A DNA stretch of 64,000 nucleotides from Rhizorhapis suberifaciens (GCF_014200045.1 NZ_JACHOV010000004.1:186001-250000), one strand, 5' to 3'; shown: positions 42,214 through 51,280, counted from the stretch's first letter. Notes: generated by a model from the letters alone, not told the origin. Program-made: numbers and translations.

Positions 42214-43371
42214 ATGGCTTCCTCGCGCCGTACGGTTGCAATTGGAAACTATGATTTCCGATCCAGTGGCACCGTTGCTAACTCTATTGAAATCGCGACA
42301 GCGGCGGCAGCGGCGGGGCTACCTGTGGAACTGTGGGCGATCCGGGCAAGGGGGCCGCTGCTTGATCGTGTTCCGCAGGACCTACCCATAGTGGAAATTG
42401 GACGCGGTCATTGGTCAGCGGGAAACCGCAAACTTGATATGCTGCTATGCGCAAAAAATCTCAGCGCAACTCTCCAGCGCGAACTCCCCAGTGTTTTCCT
42501 GAGCGGGGGTAACCATCTGCATCTCGCGGCGCGTCTGGCGATGAGCATCGGCGACCAGCGAAAAAGGATTCGCTTTGGAATTCGGGCAAGCAATTCATCG
42601 ATGCGGCCTGGCAGCAGGCGAAATGCCGACATGCCGCTCGGGCATCGCTGGAAATATGCAGGCGCCGATTTTGTCGTCGCCGTCTCAAGAGATTTAGCCA
42701 CCGAAATAAGTCGCTCGCTTCCGACTTTGAATGTTCGCTTTATACCCAATGGCGTCGATGTCGGCCGCGTGCGACGGTTGGCCTCCGACCCCTTTGATCA
42801 TCGATTTTTCGGGAAAGCTAAGCCATGCCCAGTGATTGTAGCCATGGGCCGGATTTCCCGGCAAAAAGGATTCGATGTCCTGATCCGGGCATTAGCTCAT
42901 ATATCACCCGAAGTTCGCCCCCGGCTCATCATCATCGGTGAAGGTTCGAAGGCCGAAACAGCTAAACTTCATGTCCTTGCCCAGACTTGCAATATAGCTG
43001 AAGACGTGGATTTTCTGGGCTATCTACCTAATCCCTTCGCAGCGATGAGCAGGGCCGACCTGTTTGTCTGCGCATCGCGGTGGGAAGGGGCCAGCAACGC
43101 GTTGAATGAAGCGCTGGTCTGTGGGCTGCCGATCGTTGCAACCGATTGCCCGACCGGCAACAGGGAGGCTTTGAAAAATGGGCAATATGGAACTCTCGTT
43201 GCACCAGACGACCCGCTCGCGCTGGCTCATGGTATCATGGCAGAGTTATCGAATGGGGACCGAGCAGCAATGGGACCGGAAGTGGCTGGGGAACTCAATC
43301 TCCAGGCTCGTTTGAACGAGTGGGTGGAACTACTTACATATTATCATCGACAAGCTATTGCGTTGCAATGA
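42214..43371 (+). CDS. Glycosyltransferase family 4
   Basis: A 385-residue GT-B glycosyltransferase that adds a sugar from an activated donor to a lipid or glycan acceptor on the cytoplasmic face. The donor-binding C-domain has MGRISRQKGFDVLIRAL and LFVCASRWEGASNALNEALVCGLPIV with the EGxxNxxxEA pattern of GT4. GAGGAT precedes the ATG. It is the first gene of the envelope locus reaching to 49127; the next gene starts 178 bases later. Codon use is somewhat less GC-rich than that of neighbouring core genes. Confidence 0.88.
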   Translation: MASSRRTVAIGNYDFRSSGTVANSIEIATAAAAAGLPVELWAIRARGPLLDRVPQDLPIVEIGRGHWSAGNRKLDMLLCAKNLSATLQRELPSVFLSGGNHLHLAARLAMSIGDQRKRIRFGIRASNSSMRPGSRRNADMPLGHRWKYAGADFVVAVSRDLATEISRSLPTLNVRFIPNGVDVGRVRRLASDPFDHRFFGKAKPCPVIVAMGRISRQKGFDVLIRALAHISPEVRPRLIIIGEGSKAETAKLHVLAQTCNIAEDVDFLGYLPNPFAAMSRADLFVCASRWEGASNALNEALVCGLPIVATDCPTGNREALKNGQYGTLVAPDDPLALAHGIMAELSNGDRAAMGPEVAGELNLQARLNEWVELLTYYHRQAIALQ

Positions 43372-43549
43372 TCGGCCAAAGTTTTGAGGCTCAGCGATGA
43401 GGCAGCTTTTAAAGGCCCACAATGGTGAGTGAAGGGTGATAGTGAAAGCGCACAATTCGGCCTAACATGATCTGTATTTTAGCTGAAAGCCACTTGATTG
43501 TTGGAGTCCACAATCCTGCGCACTGCGCCAGAAAAGGAATGGATATCTC

Positions 43550-44665
43550 GTGCCCCAAGCAGCCCAGCTTCATTTCGCCGGATATAACGACACGGAAATC
43601 TGGGGAATGGATAATGCGGAGCGGGTGCGGAGGCTTGTCCGTGCCGCAAGGCTGAGTCCCGGTACGGAAGGGGATCCAGTGTTATGGGTCAATCTGGAGT
43701 TCGCTTTCGATCCACTGTGGTTTCAGTACATATTGAAGAGCCCCGGTACGTTGCTGATGGCCAAGGGAAGGCCGGCGCTTGCACTGCTGAGGTCCAGCAG
43801 CGACGCGGCAAGGCTGGATAGCATGTTCGCGCGAAATACCGAGGCGCCTGCAGCTCTTACCGTGATCAACCATGACCAGCACCCGGAAATTTACAACGAC
43901 TCCTTGCGTAAACTGGAATGTCCGTTTGTGGAGGTACTGAATCCCGCAACGATTCGGTCAATCGAGCGGCAGAGCTATTATGGCGCTTACAAGGGGGTCA
44001 CCGACATCCTTACCAAATATCTCTGGCCGGAGCTGGCGCTGGTCCTGACGCGATTTGCCGCGCGCATCGGCATGACGCCCAATATGATCACCACAATCGG
44101 AGCAGTTCTGTGCGTTTATGCGACAGTGCTGTTCTGGCAGGGAAATTACTGGCCGGGGGTCGCGGCTGCCTTCGGCTTCATGGTACTGGACACTGTCGAT
44201 GGGAAGCTTGCGCGCTGCACCATCACCTCATCGGCCTGGGGGAATATCTTTGATCATGGAATTGACCTCATCCATCCGCCATTTTGGTGGTATGCATGGG
44301 GTGCGGGGCTGACCAAAGTAGGCCTTGGTCTTGGCCATGACGCGTTTCTGACGGTCATGGCGGTCATAATCATTGGCTATGTGGTCCAGCGCCTGATTGA
44401 AGGAGCATTCATCAGATCTTTCGGCATCCATATCCATGTCTGGCAGAAATTCGATTCGATCTTCCGCCTGATTACCGCGCGGCGTAATCCCAACATGATC
44501 ATCCTTGTCGTGGCGCTGATACTGAACCGTCCGGATGTGGGGCTGGAACTGGTTGCATGGTGGACAGCCTTGTCCTGCTTGATCCACGCCGTTCGCCTGG
44601 CCCAGGCATATTCCGCCAAAGTCAGGGGTGGCAGAGTGGCAAGCTGGCTGGAGCAAGGCGCATGA
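43550..44665 (+). CDS. CDP-alcohol phosphatidyltransferase with degenerate N-terminal domain
   Basis: A 371-residue fusion. The membrane part (about 165-370) has the complete CDP-OH motif DGKLARCTITSSAWGNIFDH ending in GID (D-G-x2-A-R-x8-G-x3-D-x3-D), so it should transfer an alcohol phosphate from CDP-alcohol. The N-terminal 140 residues look like a worn nucleotidyltransferase domain (IWGMDNAERVRRLVRAARLS), and the linker SYYGAYKGVTDILTKYLWPE resembles the bifunctional IPCT/DIPPS enzymes that make inositol phosphodiesters. GTG start with AAAAGGAA upstream. Its stop overlaps the HIT gene by 4 bases. Confidence 0.85.
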   Translation: MPQAAQLHFAGYNDTEIWGMDNAERVRRLVRAARLSPGTEGDPVLWVNLEFAFDPLWFQYILKSPGTLLMAKGRPALALLRSSSDAARLDSMFARNTEAPAALTVINHDQHPEIYNDSLRKLECPFVEVLNPATIRSIERQSYYGAYKGVTDILTKYLWPELALVLTRFAARIGMTPNMITTIGAVLCVYATVLFWQGNYWPGVAAAFGFMVLDTVDGKLARCTITSSAWGNIFDHGIDLIHPPFWWYAWGAGLTKVGLGLGHDAFLTVMAVIIIGYVVQRLIEGAFIRSFGIHIHVWQKFDSIFRLITARRNPNMIILVVALILNRPDVGLELVAWWTALSCLIHAVRLAQAYSAKVRGGRVASWLEQGA

Positions 44666-45096
44666 ACGAAACTATTCGAAACTTCGGCTATCCCGCCACT
44701 TTGGTGCATGAATATGTCCATTGGGTCGCGCTGGTGCGTCCTGCGCAGTTGACGCTGGGATCGCTGATCCTTGCCGCCAAGTCGGATGCCACCGATTTCA
44801 GCGAGCTTGCGCCTGAAGCCTTTGTGGAATTGAAGCAAGTCACCGCGGATTTGACCGCCGCCCTTACCAAGGCTGTCTCCCACGCAAAGATCAACTATTT
44901 GATGCTGATGATGGTGGACCCGCATGTCCACTTCCACGTCCTGCCCCGTTATGATGGGGAACGAAGCGCTGCAGGATTGACTCTTGCCGATGCCAGCTGG
45001 CCCGGCCCGCCTGACCTATCCCAGGCCAGGAAACTGAACGAAGACGAGACACCTGCCCTTGTCGCTTGGTTGAAGGGCTATTGGCGGAGCCGGTAA
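44662..45096 (+). CDS. HIT-family protein
   Basis: A 144-residue histidine-triad protein. The motif reads DPHVHFHVLPRY (HxHxH). HIT proteins hydrolyse or transfer nucleoside phosphates, for example splitting dinucleotides or NMP-linked small molecules. Coupled by ATGA overlap to the CDP-alcohol phosphotransferase, it may degrade or recycle the CDP/NDP-alcohol or release CMP-like by-products (inference). Its 3' end overlaps the convergent nucleotidyltransferase gene by 19 bases. The frame upstream of 44662 lies in the previous gene and was excluded. Confidence 0.88.
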   Translation: MNETIRNFGYPATLVHEYVHWVALVRPAQLTLGSLILAAKSDATDFSELAPEAFVELKQVTADLTAALTKAVSHAKINYLMLMMVDPHVHFHVLPRYDGERSAAGLTLADASWPGPPDLSQARKLNEDETPALVAWLKGYWRSR

Positions 45097-45836
45097 CGAC
45101 CTTCGTCCACCCATTTCCTGGTAAGCGCGCGGGCGATCTCCACATCATGCGGGAAATCCACTTCCGCCCATTCCAGGCCCTGGATTGAGACGGTGCCGAT
45201 CTCCTGTTCCAGGGCCAGCATGTCGATAGCGCGCAAGTACCAGCGCTCAACGCCTTCGGGGGTGCACATCATCTTTTCCACCTGCTTGCGGAAAATGGCA
45301 GGCCCCTCTCCCCGGAACGCAAGCATCCCGATGGACTCCGCATTGGCAACATCTGCGCTCAGGCGCTTCCCAATGGACATCAGCTTTTCGCCTTCCCGAT
45401 GAACCTTCATATCGTCCTCGTCATAGGCGTCCTTGATATCTATCGTCACGGTAATCAGCCATCGTGCGCCATCGATTAGCTTCGCCACGATCTCGTCAGA
45501 CACAATGGTGTCGCCGTTCAGAATAATGAAGTCGCGGTCCATGGCGTGCCGGGCGATCCAGCAGGAGCCGAGATTGTCGGCGACTTGATAGAAGGGATTG
45601 AAGATCGTTTCGATCTCCACCCCCTTCACCTGCGCCAGATGCGATTCCACCCGTTGTGTTCGGAATCCGGTCACTATTAATATATGCCGGATGCCGTTCG
45701 CCTTAAGCGCGTCTAACTGCCATTCGATCAATGTGCGGCCGTTGAAATCGATCATGCATTTAGGCATATCAGATGTGAGCGGCAACAGGCGTGATCCTTG
45801 TCCGGCGCTTAGGATAATGGCTTTGCTGATCGTCAT
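45078..45836 (-). CDS. Sugar/alcohol-phosphate nucleotidyltransferase
   Basis: A 252-residue NTP-transferase of the LicC/IPCT-like type. The signature AIILSAGQGSRLLPLTSDMP followed by KCM is at residues 6-28, and FIILNGDTIVSD contains the metal-binding Asp. It would activate an alcohol or sugar phosphate with CTP or another NTP. With the neighbouring CDP-alcohol phosphotransferase, whose own N-terminal domain looks worn, it may supply the CDP-alcohol donor (inference). It is transcribed against the HIT gene and away from the flippase gene. Confidence 0.87.
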   Translation of the reverse strand: MTISKAIILSAGQGSRLLPLTSDMPKCMIDFNGRTLIEWQLDALKANGIRHILIVTGFRTQRVESHLAQVKGVEIETIFNPFYQVADNLGSCWIARHAMDRDFIILNGDTIVSDEIVAKLIDGARWLITVTIDIKDAYDEDDMKVHREGEKLMSIGKRLSADVANAESIGMLAFRGEGPAIFRKQVEKMMCTPEGVERWYLRAIDMLALEQEIGTVSIQGLEWAEVDFPHDVEIARALTRKWVDEGRYRLRQ

Positions 45837-45940
45837 CGAAGTTCCTCAGCAGAATGAACCGGCGCAAATGACTCAACGGGCTCGTTAAGGGGTCATGGCC
45901 GGCGGCAAACGGTACATCGACAAGTGCCTGCCGCTCCATT

Positions 45941-47329
45941 ATGTCGACTTACGATCCTGATCCTTTCCAGTGCGGAACGGCAGAAAAGAACAGGCCTATG
46001 GTTCCCGTTGGAAAACCACCCTCGATCATGGGCGACAGTCCTCTTGCGCGGATTCTACACAATACCGCATGGCTGCTGGGTGGCAAGGGCGTAGGCGCAC
46101 TGCTCAGTCTTGCTTATCTGGCCATAGTGACACGGACATTGGGGCCATCGGGCTTTGGCCAGTTTGCGCTGATCCTAAGCACTGCGCAGGCGATCAGCAC
46201 GATCGTCAGCTTTGAAAGCTGGCAGGTCATCGTCAAATATGGTCAGGGGCATGTCCTCAAAAAGGATTACGACCGCCTAGGACGGCTTTTTGGCTTTTGC
46301 ATCGCTATCGATATGGCGGGGGCTTTAACGGGATGCGCGATAGCCGCGGGCGTGGCGATGTGGCTTGGCCCCGCTTTCGGGTGGACTCGGGAAATAGCGA
46401 TGCAGGCTGTCGCTTATTGCGCCGTCATACTGCTCACGATTCGATCCACGCCTACCGGCATATTGCGACTGTTCGACCGCTTCGATGCGGGGGCGCTTGC
46501 CGAAACCATGATTCCTGTCGCCCGGATGGCTGGAGCGTTGATCGCATGGATCACATCCCCCGGCATTACGGCATTTCTGGTCGCTTGGGCAGCGGCGGAA
46601 CTGGTCTGCGGCATTACCTACTGGGACCTTGCCCTGCGGACAGCCAAAGCTCGTATCGGCAAATGGGAGCGGGCGGGCATCCTTCAGGTGCGGAATGAAA
46701 ATGCGGGAATCATGAGCTTCCTTACAGCTACCAACCTTAGCACGACCGTCGGTTCGCTCAGCAGGCAGATCTCTGTCCTGCTCGTGGGCTTCTTTGTTGG
46801 AGCTGCGGGGGCCGGCCTTTATCGCCTGGCTCATCAACTCAGCATGTCGCTCACCAAGATATCCGGCCTGCTCTCACGCGCCATCTTCGCCGAGCTGGCG
46901 AAGGTACATGCCGGGCAAAGCGCCAAAAAATTGCGCAAGCTGTTTCGGCGAACCAACCGGCTGGCGATCATTGCCGGAGGCATCATCATCGCGCTGATAG
47001 TGGTTCTGGGCAAGCCACTGCTGCTGTTGATGGCAGGCCCGGAGTTTGCTGGAGCCTACCCGCTTCTCCTGCTGCTTGGCATGGCCGCCTCCATCGAATT
47101 GATCGGCGTCAGCTTTGAGCCGTTGCTGATGGCGACGGGGCACCCACGCAGCATAGTCGCGATCCGTTTGATCAACGCCCTGCTGTTACTGACTGCTCTT
47201 GCGCTTTTGCTGCCAAGGCTTGGCGCCGCAGGGGCCGCCACCTCCAATCTGATCGTTGCCGTCACTGGCGTTTTGATGCTGGGCATTGCAGCGCGGCGAT
47301 ATGCGCGCAAAATGCGCGAGGCGGCTTAG
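45941..47329 (+). CDS. Oligosaccharide flippase family protein
   Basis: A membrane protein of up to 462 residues with 12-14 helices of the Wzx/MurJ-like superfamily. The first helix region (WLLGGKGVGALLSLAYLAIV followed by TRTLGPSGFGQFAL) is the family start. It should flip a lipid-linked glycan or glyco-phospholipid. It differs in sequence from the flippase at 18028-19488. The start may be at 45941, 45998 or 46028; the later ATG fits the family start best, but no ribosome binding site decides. Belongs to the CDP-alcohol locus. Confidence 0.87.
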   Translation: MSTYDPDPFQCGTAEKNRPMVPVGKPPSIMGDSPLARILHNTAWLLGGKGVGALLSLAYLAIVTRTLGPSGFGQFALILSTAQAISTIVSFESWQVIVKYGQGHVLKKDYDRLGRLFGFCIAIDMAGALTGCAIAAGVAMWLGPAFGWTREIAMQAVAYCAVILLTIRSTPTGILRLFDRFDAGALAETMIPVARMAGALIAWITSPGITAFLVAWAAAELVCGITYWDLALRTAKARIGKWERAGILQVRNENAGIMSFLTATNLSTTVGSLSRQISVLLVGFFVGAAGAGLYRLAHQLSMSLTKISGLLSRAIFAELAKVHAGQSAKKLRKLFRRTNRLAIIAGGIIIALIVVLGKPLLLLMAGPEFAGAYPLLLLLGMAASIELIGVSFEPLLMATGHPRSIVAIRLINALLLLTALALLLPRLGAAGAATSNLIVAVTGVLMLGIAARRYARKMREAA

Positions 47330-47361
47330 ACCAGAGCACCGGGCGTGTGCCACTTTTCGTT

Positions 47362-47385
47362 CGTGTCGAGCGAAGTCGCGACACG
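47362..47385. repeat. REP-like inverted repeat with AGCGAAGTCG core
   Basis: CGTGTCG and CGACACG (7 pairs) enclose AGCGAAGTCG. Same core as at 1817-1838. It lies between the convergent flippase and nucleotidyltransferase genes. Confidence 0.6.
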
Positions 47386-47399
47386 TCTACCCACCCGCT

Positions 47400-48209
47400 C
47401 TAAACAGGAAGCCGCTGATGAAGTATGGCCTCCGCCATCGCCAAATCGGCCGGCTTATCGATATCGATGCAGGCCTCTGGCTGGGGCATGGAGACAATTC
47501 GGGCATTAAGACCAAGGCGCCTGCCAGCCATTGCGGCGGCCCGGTGGATCGTCAACACACGGAAGGCGGCACCAAGCAACAGCATCGGCCCGAAGGCTCC
47601 GACGATCTTCATGCCTTTCTTGCGGTCCTGTTCGACGCTCTGCCAGAGCGAGAGCAGCGGCTGCACCTTGTCGTTGGCAAACCAGAACAGGTTCGCCCCG
47701 GACCACCAGCCCTTCCGAAATTTGAGCCAGGTCCGGCGGGAAGCGGGATAACGGTCGAGCAACACGCGGCGTTCGACCATGCCGACGGCCACGTCCGCCT
47801 TTGTTGCGCCCTCAATGAAGCTGTCGATCATGGCGTGGGTCAGCAGCACGTTATCCGCCGTTGTGACCAGCGCGGGATATGCGTCCTTGCCGAGGGCGGC
47901 GGCCAATGAGCTGCTGATACCGGAACCGCTGGCGATGAACTGCACGCGCGGATCAGCCTGCCATAGGGCATCGCCGCTGGAGCGGGACAGCAATTCCGTA
48001 TCTTGCGCGAGTATCAGGACGCCCCCGATTTCGCGATGCGTGAGGAGCGTCCGCGCAACGCGGGACAGCATCGTTTCTCCCGCAACAGGAACAAGCGCTT
48101 TCAGCGGTACGCCAGCGGCATCCGCCATTGGATCGCGGCCGGGCCTGCTGCCGGCCAGGACAATGGCGCAAATGCCTTTCGTCGCTGTCTCGCCATGCTC
48201 AAGCTTCAT
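47400..48209 (-). CDS. MobA-like NTP-transferase domain protein
   Basis: A 269-residue nucleotidyltransferase. The N-terminus reads GICAIVLAGSRPGRDPMADA with a modified LAGxRxxxDP signature and KALVPVAGETML. The metal site would be in ALVTTADNVLLTH. It resembles MobA/GlmU-type enzymes, but the P-loop differs from the LicC-like enzyme at 45078. Substrate unknown; its place in the locus suggests activation of a sugar or alcohol phosphate. It is transcribed away from the diacylglycerol-kinase-like gene. Confidence 0.8.
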   Translation of the reverse strand: MKLEHGETATKGICAIVLAGSRPGRDPMADAAGVPLKALVPVAGETMLSRVARTLLTHREIGGVLILAQDTELLSRSSGDALWQADPRVQFIASGSGISSSLAAALGKDAYPALVTTADNVLLTHAMIDSFIEGATKADVAVGMVERRVLLDRYPASRRTWLKFRKGWWSGANLFWFANDKVQPLLSLWQSVEQDRKKGMKIVGAFGPMLLLGAAFRVLTIHRAAAMAGRRLGLNARIVSMPQPEACIDIDKPADLAMAEAILHQRLPV

Positions 48210-48305
48210 TCACGCCCTTTCATCGGCATTTGCATGTATGTTGTCATTCCAAAAGGCAAGCCGACCGTCGGGCACTTTTTGTCACGATGTTACGTTATAT
48301 TCGGC

Positions 48306-49127
48306 ATGGTCCAGCCCTGGCTTATAGCGAATCGAACAAGCGGTAGCCACGACCCCGCCCTATGCGACGCTATTGAAGAAACAGTTGCGAAATATAGCCG
48401 CGACATAGTCCGCATAATCTCTCTACCTGATGATCCACTACCCGATGCCGCCGAAGCAAAAGCGTCCGGAACGGAGTTGATTGTCATCTTCACGGGCGAT
48501 GGCACGGTAAGCATGGCCGTAGATGCGCTGGAGGGCTGGCAAGGCGACCTTCTGGTCCTGCCGGGCGGCACCATGAACCTGCTGTCGCGCAAATTGCATG
48601 GGGCGCGGGAGCCGCTAGCGATATTGGAGGCCGCGCTGAAGCCGGAAGCGCAACGCGCAATTCTGCCGGTAGCGCAAGGGCATGGACTGAGGTCGCTGGT
48701 GGGTATTGTCGCGGGGCCAACAGCGGCCTGGGGCGAGGTCCGGGAGGACATGCGGCAGTTGAACGTGGGCGGTCTGATCGAATCCGTACCGCAAGCGCTG
48801 CAGGAAACGCTGCAAGGCGATCCGGTGTCGGTAGACGGCGTTGAGGGCGAATTCGAAGCGGTGTTTGTAGATCCCCAGGCGGAGGGACTGAGAGTCAACG
48901 GCATCCATGCCGGTACGGCGGCGGAATTGCTGCAACATGGCTGGGCATGGTTGAAGGGCGATTTTCGCGAAGGACCCCACACGCCTTTGATTTGCACCCC
49001 GGAAGTCGTGTTGAGACGAGAGGGGGCTTTCGCGCTGCTGGTAGATGGCGAGCAGGCGGAGGCAGCCAGTCCCTGCCGCTTTACATTAGGGGCATGCCCA
49101 TTGCGATTCATTGCGACGCGCAAATAA
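48306..49127 (+). CDS. Diacylglycerol-kinase-family protein
   Basis: A 273-residue protein of the DAGK_cat / YegS-BmrU family. The nucleotide-binding motif is IFTGDGTVSMAVDALEG, followed by LLVLPGGTMNLLSRKLHGAR, the GGTxN block that marks lipid and sphingosine kinases. It would phosphorylate a lipid alcohol such as diacylglycerol at the inner membrane. The ATG at 48306 was chosen because the family region starts there; the open frame upstream to 48003 overlaps the divergent gene. It closes the envelope locus. Confidence 0.87.
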   Translation: MVQPWLIANRTSGSHDPALCDAIEETVAKYSRDIVRIISLPDDPLPDAAEAKASGTELIVIFTGDGTVSMAVDALEGWQGDLLVLPGGTMNLLSRKLHGAREPLAILEAALKPEAQRAILPVAQGHGLRSLVGIVAGPTAAWGEVREDMRQLNVGGLIESVPQALQETLQGDPVSVDGVEGEFEAVFVDPQAEGLRVNGIHAGTAAELLQHGWAWLKGDFREGPHTPLICTPEVVLRREGAFALLVDGEQAEAASPCRFTLGACPLRFIATRK

Positions 49128-49294: not shown

Positions 49295-49972
49295 CTAGCT
49301 CGCCGCTGCACTGGCCTCCAAACGCAAAACTGGCAAGCAAGTCCGTTCAATCGTCGCCACGGCAGCTTCCATTGCCTCCGTGACCTCATTGACCTCACCT
49401 TCTGGTGGTTTGATCGCATACATTCCACGACGAAGCTTTTTCGTGAATTCAGCGTCTGTGCCGCCCTCGTCGTCAACGTAGCTGTCCACATCAACCTGCA
49501 CGATCCAAAATTGATGGTTCAGCTTATCAATCGCCTGCTCCAGTTCTTCGCTGAACAATGCTCGCGCCATTGGAAGACACTGGTCAAGCGCCTCGCGCTC
49601 ATCCTTTGTGCGATTGATCCTGTTGTAAAATGCCTGAGCAGTCACCAGCCGCTTCTGCCGCTCCTTCGTCTGCGTGTCCCAGCCATCCTTCTCTTTCATC
49701 TGCTCTTCAGCAGCGTGCAACTCGTGACCCCACATCATAACGCCACGCACATATCCAAGCGCGCGTCGCGCCTTATAAGTCGCCGTCAAAATTCGCTCAG
49801 CCTGATCTTGCTTACGCTCAGCCAACTTCTGCGTGCGCCACGCATCAAATGTGTTTGCGCCCTTGATCGCAGCCCATACGACAGCACCTACACCGCCAAG
49901 AGTGCCAATGCCTTGCAGCATCGTTCCCGTCGCTGCCCAATCAACTGCCGCATTGCATATCGCGTAAGGCAC
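49295..49972 (-). CDS. One-helix membrane protein, partner of the R-x4-H protein
   Basis: A 225-residue protein of unknown function. One hydrophobic helix (about residues 16-40, LQGIGTLGGVGAVVWAAIKG) is followed by a charged helical region (about 45-75, DAWRTQKLAERKQDQAERIL) and a soluble domain ending in AVATIERTCLPVLRLEASAA. It starts with GTG immediately after the TGA of the upstream gene, with AAAGGAAAG before it, so the two are translated together. GC content is visibly lower than in the flanking genes. The topology (membrane anchor with cytoplasmic domain) recalls effectors or sensors of defence modules, but no recognised catalytic motif is seen. Confidence 0.7.
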   Translation of the reverse strand: MPYAICNAAVDWAATGTMLQGIGTLGGVGAVVWAAIKGANTFDAWRTQKLAERKQDQAERILTATYKARRALGYVRGVMMWGHELHAAEEQMKEKDGWDTQTKERQKRLVTAQAFYNRINRTKDEREALDQCLPMARALFSEELEQAIDKLNHQFWIVQVDVDSYVDDEGGTDAEFTKKLRRGMYAIKPPEGEVNEVTEAMEAAVATIERTCLPVLRLEASAAAS

Positions 49973-51058
49973 TCAACTTTCCTTTACAGCAACATCGCCA
50001 TCCTCATCGCCCTCACCTTCATCAGCGATGTATGACTTCATTTTACTGATGAGATGAAACATAAAGTCCGTCATCATCAAAGCATTCAAACTCGTCTGCC
50101 TGCTGCTGTATGATATTATGCCGTGTAACGATGCGTGACGATTAGGCACTGGATCATTCGCAAATTTGGAAATCTCCGCTGCGTCTTCTCCAACGCGCGC
50201 GTAGAGATGCTCTTCCATTTTGGTGAACAAGTTCATTCCAAACTCGTAAGACAGCAAATCGCCTGCTGGTAAATCACGTGCAGCCTCACTGACGCCTGGC
50301 AAACTCGTTATACCAAACGCCTTCAGCTTTCCTTTGGGCGTCTGTTCAGTAATCGTCCGCTTGCCGCCGTATATTTCGTTGCTTGCCACCCTTTCAATCT
50401 CTGGAAAAAGCGTCCTTGGAACAGCACGATATAGACCGTGACGATGCGCGCTCAGCGCCTCTCTGAAGGTTGCCTTGGCCTCGTTATCAATCTGATAGCC
50501 GTCCAGATTTTCTAAAAACTGGCCTTCGACCTCATCCCAAGCCTCAGCATAGTGCGTTGCTATCGCCTCATTAGCTGCTGCTACGTCGCTCTCTTCCACA
50601 TCAATCAAGTAGAATGGCGTCGTATAATGCGGCAACCAACCCGTCTGCTCAACAAGCTCCGCCTTCTTCCGCTCCTCCGCGATACGCGCAAAAACCTGCT
50701 GAAACGGTGCCAAGCTCGATTGCACCGTAGCCTGCCAAGCTTTACCTATTGACTGAATGCTTTCAGCAATGGCCTGACTGTTTTTCTGCCAATCAGATAT
50801 TACGGTCGTAAACGATGGCGGCAAAAATGGCCGCACCACCATCGTATCTTGGATACCTTTCAATACTTGCGGTTCGACAAATGCAGAACGCCACCGCTGC
50901 GTTGCCTCAGTGATTGCATTAAGATCGAGGGACTTCGTTAGCTTCGGAGCTTCCTGCGCCTGCTTAACAATCCCCAAATCAAGCGATTTTTGTATACTCG
51001 CTGCCTGTTTCGCAATCTCGCCTAGTTTCAAAGATATTGCACGCTCAGGATCACTCAT
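49973..51058 (-). CDS. Putative HEPN-like protein with R-x4-H motif
   Basis: A 361-residue protein of unknown function. Near the C-terminus NRHASLHG gives R307-x4-H312, the residue pattern of HEPN ribonucleases, preceded by a helical region with HRHGLYRAVPRTLFPEIERV that resembles the scaffold of such domains. The N-terminus carries three imperfect repeats of the form SLxL-xxI-xxA at residues 9, 25 and 43. A strong ribosome binding site (GGGGAGGGGG) precedes the ATG at 51058; the frame continues to 51163 without support. First gene of a two-gene unit, AT-richer than its surroundings. HEPN assignment is by motif only. Confidence 0.7.
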   Translation of the reverse strand: MSDPERAISLKLGEIAKQAASIQKSLDLGIVKQAQEAPKLTKSLDLNAITEATQRWRSAFVEPQVLKGIQDTMVVRPFLPPSFTTVISDWQKNSQAIAESIQSIGKAWQATVQSSLAPFQQVFARIAEERKKAELVEQTGWLPHYTTPFYLIDVEESDVAAANEAIATHYAEAWDEVEGQFLENLDGYQIDNEAKATFREALSAHRHGLYRAVPRTLFPEIERVASNEIYGGKRTITEQTPKGKLKAFGITSLPGVSEAARDLPAGDLLSYEFGMNLFTKMEEHLYARVGEDAAEISKFANDPVPNRHASLHGIISYSSRQTSLNALMMTDFMFHLISKMKSYIADEGEGDEDGDVAVKES

Positions 51059-51280
51059 ACCGCCCCCTCCCCGGGATCTCGTGGGTGCCAAGATATAGCA
51101 CCAGATTACGGGCTGAATATGAGACTTTACGAGTTCCACGCGACAAACCTCGCAAAGCATCACTGCTGTTAAGCAGCCAAGTGGTTAGCATTGACTTGTT
51201 TTGATATCCGTAAGCTGCCGCTCATTTTCGCGATCAAAACCAGAACACGTGTAATCTCACGTACTAAGAACGTGCAAACG

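Follow-up and report, generated by a model that had tools for sequence, protein, structure and literature searches.

The window, that is the whole stretch of DNA analyzed here, comprises 64,000 nucleotides of Rhizorhapis suberifaciens. All seven genes that a preliminary description had placed at the locus of interest (positions 42214-49127) are present, each confirmed by Pfam, with two starts corrected:

42214-43371, plus strand: GT4 glycosyltransferase (Pfam); peripheral
43550-44665, plus strand: CAP (P0002), CDP-alcohol phosphotransferase, probably of CpgA/CC_1159 type (Pfam CDP-OH_P_transf, 2.2e-9)
44662-45096, plus strand: HIT (P0003), HIT-family protein (Pfam HIT), putatively of CC_1157 type by gene order
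45078-45836, minus strand: NTP (P0004), LicC/IPCT/CpgD-type cytidylyltransferase (Pfam NTP_transferase and NCBIfam)
45941-47329, plus strand: Wzx-type flippase (Pfam Polysacc_synt); a frequent, not universal, neighbor
47400-48209, minus strand: MobA/CofC-like nucleotidyltransferase (P0006; Pfam NTP_transf_3), putatively of CC_1153 type
48308-49127, plus strand: DAGK_cat lipid kinase (Pfam DAGK_cat); peripheral

The seven genes are spread over both strands. The HIT gene was given a start at the ATG at 44662, the listed ORF start at 44557 being too early, and an ATGA overlap joins the CAP stop to this HIT start; HIT and NTP run toward each other and share 19 bases (45078-45096). The DAGK gene most likely starts at the ATG at 48308 and not at the TTG at 48003, because the extension from the latter would run antisense through the MobA-like gene. 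Two adjacent genes (49295-51163, minus strand; 225 and 396 aa), lying between the DAGK gene and ribosomal protein genes, gave no Pfam or PADLOC match.

CAP is a two-domain protein, composed of an N-terminal domain (residues about 1-130) with a nucleotidyltransferase fold and a CDP-AP membrane domain (about 150-358). Its catalytic motif was said to be intact, and it is: D214-x2-D217-G218-x2-A221-R222-x8-G231-x3-D235-x3-D239, with each residue invariant in 25 homologues. The AlphaFold2 model (25-sequence alignment, pLDDT 89.8) matched, over residues 4-356, both AF2299 (4o6n; Z 22.7, 3.1 Å over 304 residues) and Archaeoglobus IPCT-DIPPS (4mnd; Z 21.2), so that the two-domain fold is common to the three proteins over nearly the whole length of CAP. 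By contrast, identity to these two is 12-14%, the N-terminal domain of CAP lacks the active motif, and no inositol synthase adjoins its gene. Residues 3-145 taken alone matched cytidylyltransferases at a weak Z of 6-8, and the fold assignment of this domain therefore depends chiefly on the match of the whole protein, in which the two domains come in the same order. Indeed, the model bears out the earlier view of a worn IPCT-like domain: the nucleotidyltransferase fold is there, and the G-x-G-x-R and Lys active-site motif, present in the neighboring NTP, is absent from residues 1-130. Since this motif is missing, the domain is most likely a non-catalytic, degenerate nucleotidyltransferase fold, as in AF2299.

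The separate nucleotidyltransferase noticed next door, NTP, is a cytidylyltransferase that carries the motif the fused domain has lost. Its PDB relatives include LicC (1jyk, 5.8e-14) and the IPCT of T. maritima (4jd0, 4.9e-7), with which it has the family and the active-site motif in common, but NTP lies in another genomic context and has CpgD-like contact residues. As no CpgD-labelled entry was found among the matches of NTP in the PDB sequence search, the CpgD residues were taken from the published papers (G12, R16, K26, N90, T93, N110, G111, D112, S170 and W201). By spacing, not by alignment to CpgD, every one of these contact residues was found in NTP (G12, R16, K26, N88, S91, N107-G108-D109, S168 and W199), Thr93 being represented by Ser91. 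Asn88 is thus likely the equivalent of CpgD Asn90, which contacts the ribose and the glycerate.

We then examined which genes accompany CAP in its relatives. A contig scan yielded one true relative, from Sphingosinicella (L002). Among 41 neighborhoods of CAP relatives, NTP was found in 28, the MobA-like gene in 27, HIT in 21 and the flippase in 18, whereas relatives of GT4 and of the window DAGK were found in just four and two, respectively. The conserved unit thus consists of CAP, HIT, NTP and the MobA-like protein, often with the flippase, GT4 and DAGK being peripheral. The proposal that the seven genes form a single route consequently holds for the four core genes, which recur together in relatives, and often for the flippase, but not for GT4 and DAGK, which are not conserved with the others. 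The lack of conservation of these two genes and the mixing of strands could also be taken to mean that seven independent envelope genes merely happen to be adjacent; we give this next to no credence, as the phylogenetic profile contradicts it where the four core genes are concerned: CAP, HIT, NTP and the MobA-like gene co-occur across genera, also when unlinked. In 11 of the 41 loci, a CpgB-related lipid kinase and a CpgC-family protein are encoded a few kb from CAP, the latter sharing 36% identity, in the pair compared, with this genome's CpgC.

These last genes belong to a pathway known from Caulobacter, whose sphingolipid region, CC_1152-CC_1168, directs the synthesis of ceramide (di)phosphoglycerate (PMC11324152, PMC12275187, PMC10331486). 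In that region, CC_1160 encodes the ceramide kinase, CC_1159 a transferase of the CDP-alcohol type, CC_1152 the CDP-glycerate-forming enzyme CpgD and CC_1153 a CofC-like protein (PMC11324152, PMC12275187, PMC10331486); CPG2 depends on CC_1159, CC_1152 and CC_1153, whereas CPG does not. When the MobA-like family was searched for across the class, two loci emerged, L106 and L111, in which a single cluster encodes HIT, LptF, LptG, an FA-hydroxylase, a GNAT protein (at the cerS position), the MobA-like protein, NTP, CAP, a DAGK (at the CpgB position), CpgC, Spt and ACP, which is the set published for Caulobacter (PMC11324152). CAP is about 40% identical to its homologue in the complete L106 cluster. 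In the genome under study, this set is split: contig C2 carries cerS, FAH, lptG, lptF, cpgB, cpgC, spt and acp without CAP, HIT, NTP or MobA, and the window holds these missing members. The C2 homologues of CpgB, CpgC, Spt and CerS are 27-49% identical to the L106/L111 cluster proteins. The window DAGK was also considered as a ceramide kinase and rejected: the CpgB homologue is a separate gene on C2, and none of the CpgB homologues from L106, L111 and C2 was matched by the window protein at the threshold of the search.

Since the presumed Caulobacter counterparts of CAP, NTP and the MobA-like protein are those needed for CPG2 and not for CPG, the core of the locus, together with the flippase, very probably represents that half of a split ceramide phosphoglycerate pathway which leads to CPG2. 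The orthology to CC_1152, CC_1153, CC_1157 and CC_1159 that this implies is suggested by gene order, family membership and published residues. In support of this reading, a cpgC homologue, present in 277 of 396 Sphingomonadales genomes, is found in all 76 that carry a strong CAP. In genus g3, CAP, HIT and NTP are found only in G359 and G365 among 39 listed genomes with cpgC, a pattern repeated in genus g7 (G191 and G228 among 27). Compared with Caulobacter, genes of the CC_1159, CC_1152, CC_1153 and flippase CC_1166 types are also present here and the remaining genes are on C2, but the pathway occupies two sites, CAP and HIT are joined by an ATGA overlap, GT4 is extra, DAGK is a second kinase and a CC_1158-type phosphoesterase gave no match in this genome. 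The last difference does not define the pathway, because CC_1158 can be dispensed with in Caulobacter and is lacking in other organisms, S. wittichii among them. S. wittichii is a sphingomonad with the same gene complement, whose CPG2 orthologues were reported in six scattered regions (PMC11324152). The supposition of a CDP-alcohol route to a phosphodiester-linked lipid thus fits the CPG2 gene set well; the companion statement that no nameable sphingomonad pathway uses this set was mistaken, given the match to the Caulobacter pathway (PMC11324152, PMC12275187) and the orthologues already reported in S. wittichii. The CPG2 pathway and its presence in sphingomonads are therefore known; what is new here is the split layout, the strict co-inheritance of HIT and CAP and the variant lineage described below.

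The architecture and fold of CAP, which match AF2299 and IPCT-DIPPS, and the resemblance of NTP to IPCT could instead point to an inositol-phosphodiester lipid or a DIPP-like solute, in which case NTP would make CDP-inositol and CAP would transfer inositol phosphate. The genome does carry a myo-inositol-1-phosphate synthase gene, on contig C8, and in L070 and L071 distant CAPs adjoin a synthase gene of that type. However, the C8 gene, the only one found, sits among unrelated glycosyltransferase, radical-SAM and epimerase-like genes, and neighborhood clustering placed no such synthase beside any window-type CAP; window-type CAPs associate with cpgB/cpgC-type and ceramide genes. Furthermore, in the CAP tree the window-type CAPs and those of CPG clusters are intermixed, whereas the synthase-linked CAPs form a separate clade outside them (100/100) and score 92-99 bits, where window-type CAPs reach at least 239. 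An inositol route is accordingly unlikely, and we would be surprised to see it confirmed. The distant CAP relatives themselves (about 480 aa; L070:8877-10322, L071:8735-10183 and L072:9278-10738, from other Sphingomonadales), which in L070 and L071 have both the synthase and a nucleotidyltransferase nearby, possibly belong to a separate inositol lipid pathway. The C8 region (G000:C8:22000-41500; L137:8848-17869) is an orphan cluster comprising the inositol-phosphate synthase, several glycosyltransferases, a B12-binding radical-SAM protein and two epimerase-like genes.

HIT, which the preliminary description had coupled to CAP, displays the triad H88-V-H90-F-H92-V-L (H-phi-H-phi-H-phi-phi) in the window; H90 and H92 are invariant in 15 HIT homologues, and several relatives have D, N or Q in place of the first His. 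We analyzed its distribution in the 396 Sphingomonadales genomes, where a strong CAP is found in 76 and HIT in 63. HIT is present in 62 of the 76 CAP-bearing genomes and in one of the 320 others (Fisher p 1.8e-57, ignoring relatedness), and that one, G105, carries a divergent CAP (L069), so that the proposed coupling is borne out. Counted by genus, CAP and HIT occur together in 17, CAP only in two and HIT only in one, that of G105. Linkage between the two genes cannot by itself account for this profile, because in at least 18 genomes the two are far apart or on different contigs. In L087 and L088, the gene order is CAP, metallophosphoesterase, HIT, lptF, lptG, FAH, cerS and MobA, which corresponds to CC_1159, 1158, 1157, 1156, 1155, 1154 and 1153 with one insertion and places HIT at CC_1157; we infer from this order that HIT is probably the CC_1157 counterpart. 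CC_1157 was published as "probably unrelated", the cofitness data showing no tie to the cluster (PMC11324152). The missing cofitness speaks either for a role that is conditional or redundant or for none at all. We found nothing further in the literature on CC_1157 or CCNA_01215, and nothing direct on a HIT/CAP/flippase set in Sphingomonas. The idea that HIT is simply a stand-in for the CC_1158 phosphoesterase found no support, as L087, L088, L096, L106, L107 and L111 carry both.

The genomes that have CAP without HIT number 14, of which 13 also lack an NTP close to that of the window (identity of 38% or lower, or nothing matching at 1e-40); only G176 differs. In five aligned loci from one HIT-less genus, g2, the residue equivalent to Asn88 is Ser, whereas Asn is kept in all 28 NTPs from HIT-bearing genomes or loci, that of the window included, and also in L086 and L098, where no HIT was seen within about 10 kb. 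We put at about even the chances that HIT has an unrecognized part in CPG2 synthesis, acting as a nucleotide hydrolase together with CAP and the CpgD-type NTP, and that g2, having lost HIT, uses the Asn-to-Ser cytidylyltransferase and would therefore make a different ceramide head group.

A related proposal concerns the window itself: by unchanged, CPG2-like chemistry on ceramide, another phospho-alcohol or phospho-acid would be installed as head group, or GT4 would add a sugar or glycerophosphate. Enzymes of the NTP family do take differing substrates (PMC12275187), an active-site residue is changed in g2, here GT4 is located upstream of CAP, and in 11 of 41 loci a gene near CAP encodes a protein (f8) that weakly matches CDP-glycerol glycerophosphotransferase. 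Yet the window and all HIT-linked relatives checked keep the NTP Asn that contacts glycerate in CpgD, and GT4 is not conserved with the set, which leaves this proposal improbable, with a small but appreciable share of our belief. The f8 match (PF04464; L061:11012-12202 and relatives in 10 further CAP loci) is below cut-off, and the protein often adjoins CAP where the window has GT4.

The MobA-like protein has CofC as its best NCBIfam match (3.2e-5), and its model (pLDDT 90.9) is closest to TTHA0179 (2dpw, Z 24.8), followed by GlmU/TarI/IspD. It shares only 30% identity with its counterpart in L106; in most alphaproteobacterial loci its gene adjoins a cerS-like gene. As some of these loci contain the MobA-like gene, cpgB and cpgC without CAP, NTP or HIT within about 10 kb, the enzyme may serve an earlier step. 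Divergent relatives in L102 (7862-8884 and 9922-10743), L103, L104, L108 and L112 have no cerS, cpg or lpt genes around them; L102 holds two in one locus, and the family presumably has a different use in these loci.

Taken with the CPG2 reading, the observed gene content, conservation, folds and co-occurrence lead us to infer the following enzyme activities, step order and lipid product. Spt, CerS and other enzymes encoded on C2 would make ceramide, which, by homology, the CpgB-type kinase would phosphorylate and CpgC convert to ceramide phosphoglycerate (CPG), both also encoded on C2. NTP would form CDP-glycerate from phosphoglycerate and CTP, as shown for Caulobacter CpgD and supported here by homology. 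CAP would then attach phosphoglycerate, taken from CDP-glycerate, to CPG at its glycerate end, giving CPG2 and CMP, its worn N-terminal domain acting as a non-catalytic scaffold; homology supports the CMP-releasing transfer, and CPG is the presumed acceptor. The MobA/CofC-like enzyme may activate a further intermediate, HIT may hydrolyze a nucleotide-linked intermediate or by-product of the CPG2 branch, and the flippase and the LptF/G-like proteins encoded on C2 would carry the lipid outward.

CPG2 allows Caulobacter to live without LPS and confers polymyxin sensitivity, yet its synthesis is not fully worked out, several enzymes and the step order being unsolved (PMC11324152, PMC12275187). The Sphingomonadales profile names HIT as one further candidate protein for this pathway and indicates which sphingomonads should carry anionic sphingolipids. 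It also provides a natural experiment, namely genomes with and without the CPG2 module inside one genus, along with a lineage whose cytidylyltransferase is changed; this contrast and the variant lineage make the unsolved steps directly testable.

Two additional observations concern genes of the same families. Some alphaproteobacterial families have, in their CPG clusters, a second, very divergent CDP-alcohol phosphotransferase (L091:6606-7832, L092, L093, L096, L099 and L086:12528-13910), which forms its own clade (100/100, branch 3.9) and perhaps serves another transfer step. Finally, the genome under study contains a second Spt-like gene (G000:C13:3275-4456; L126:3194-4510), which matches the L106 Spt at 51% identity, no less closely than the C2 copy does, and the resolvase-like ORF directly beside it suggests a mobile copy.
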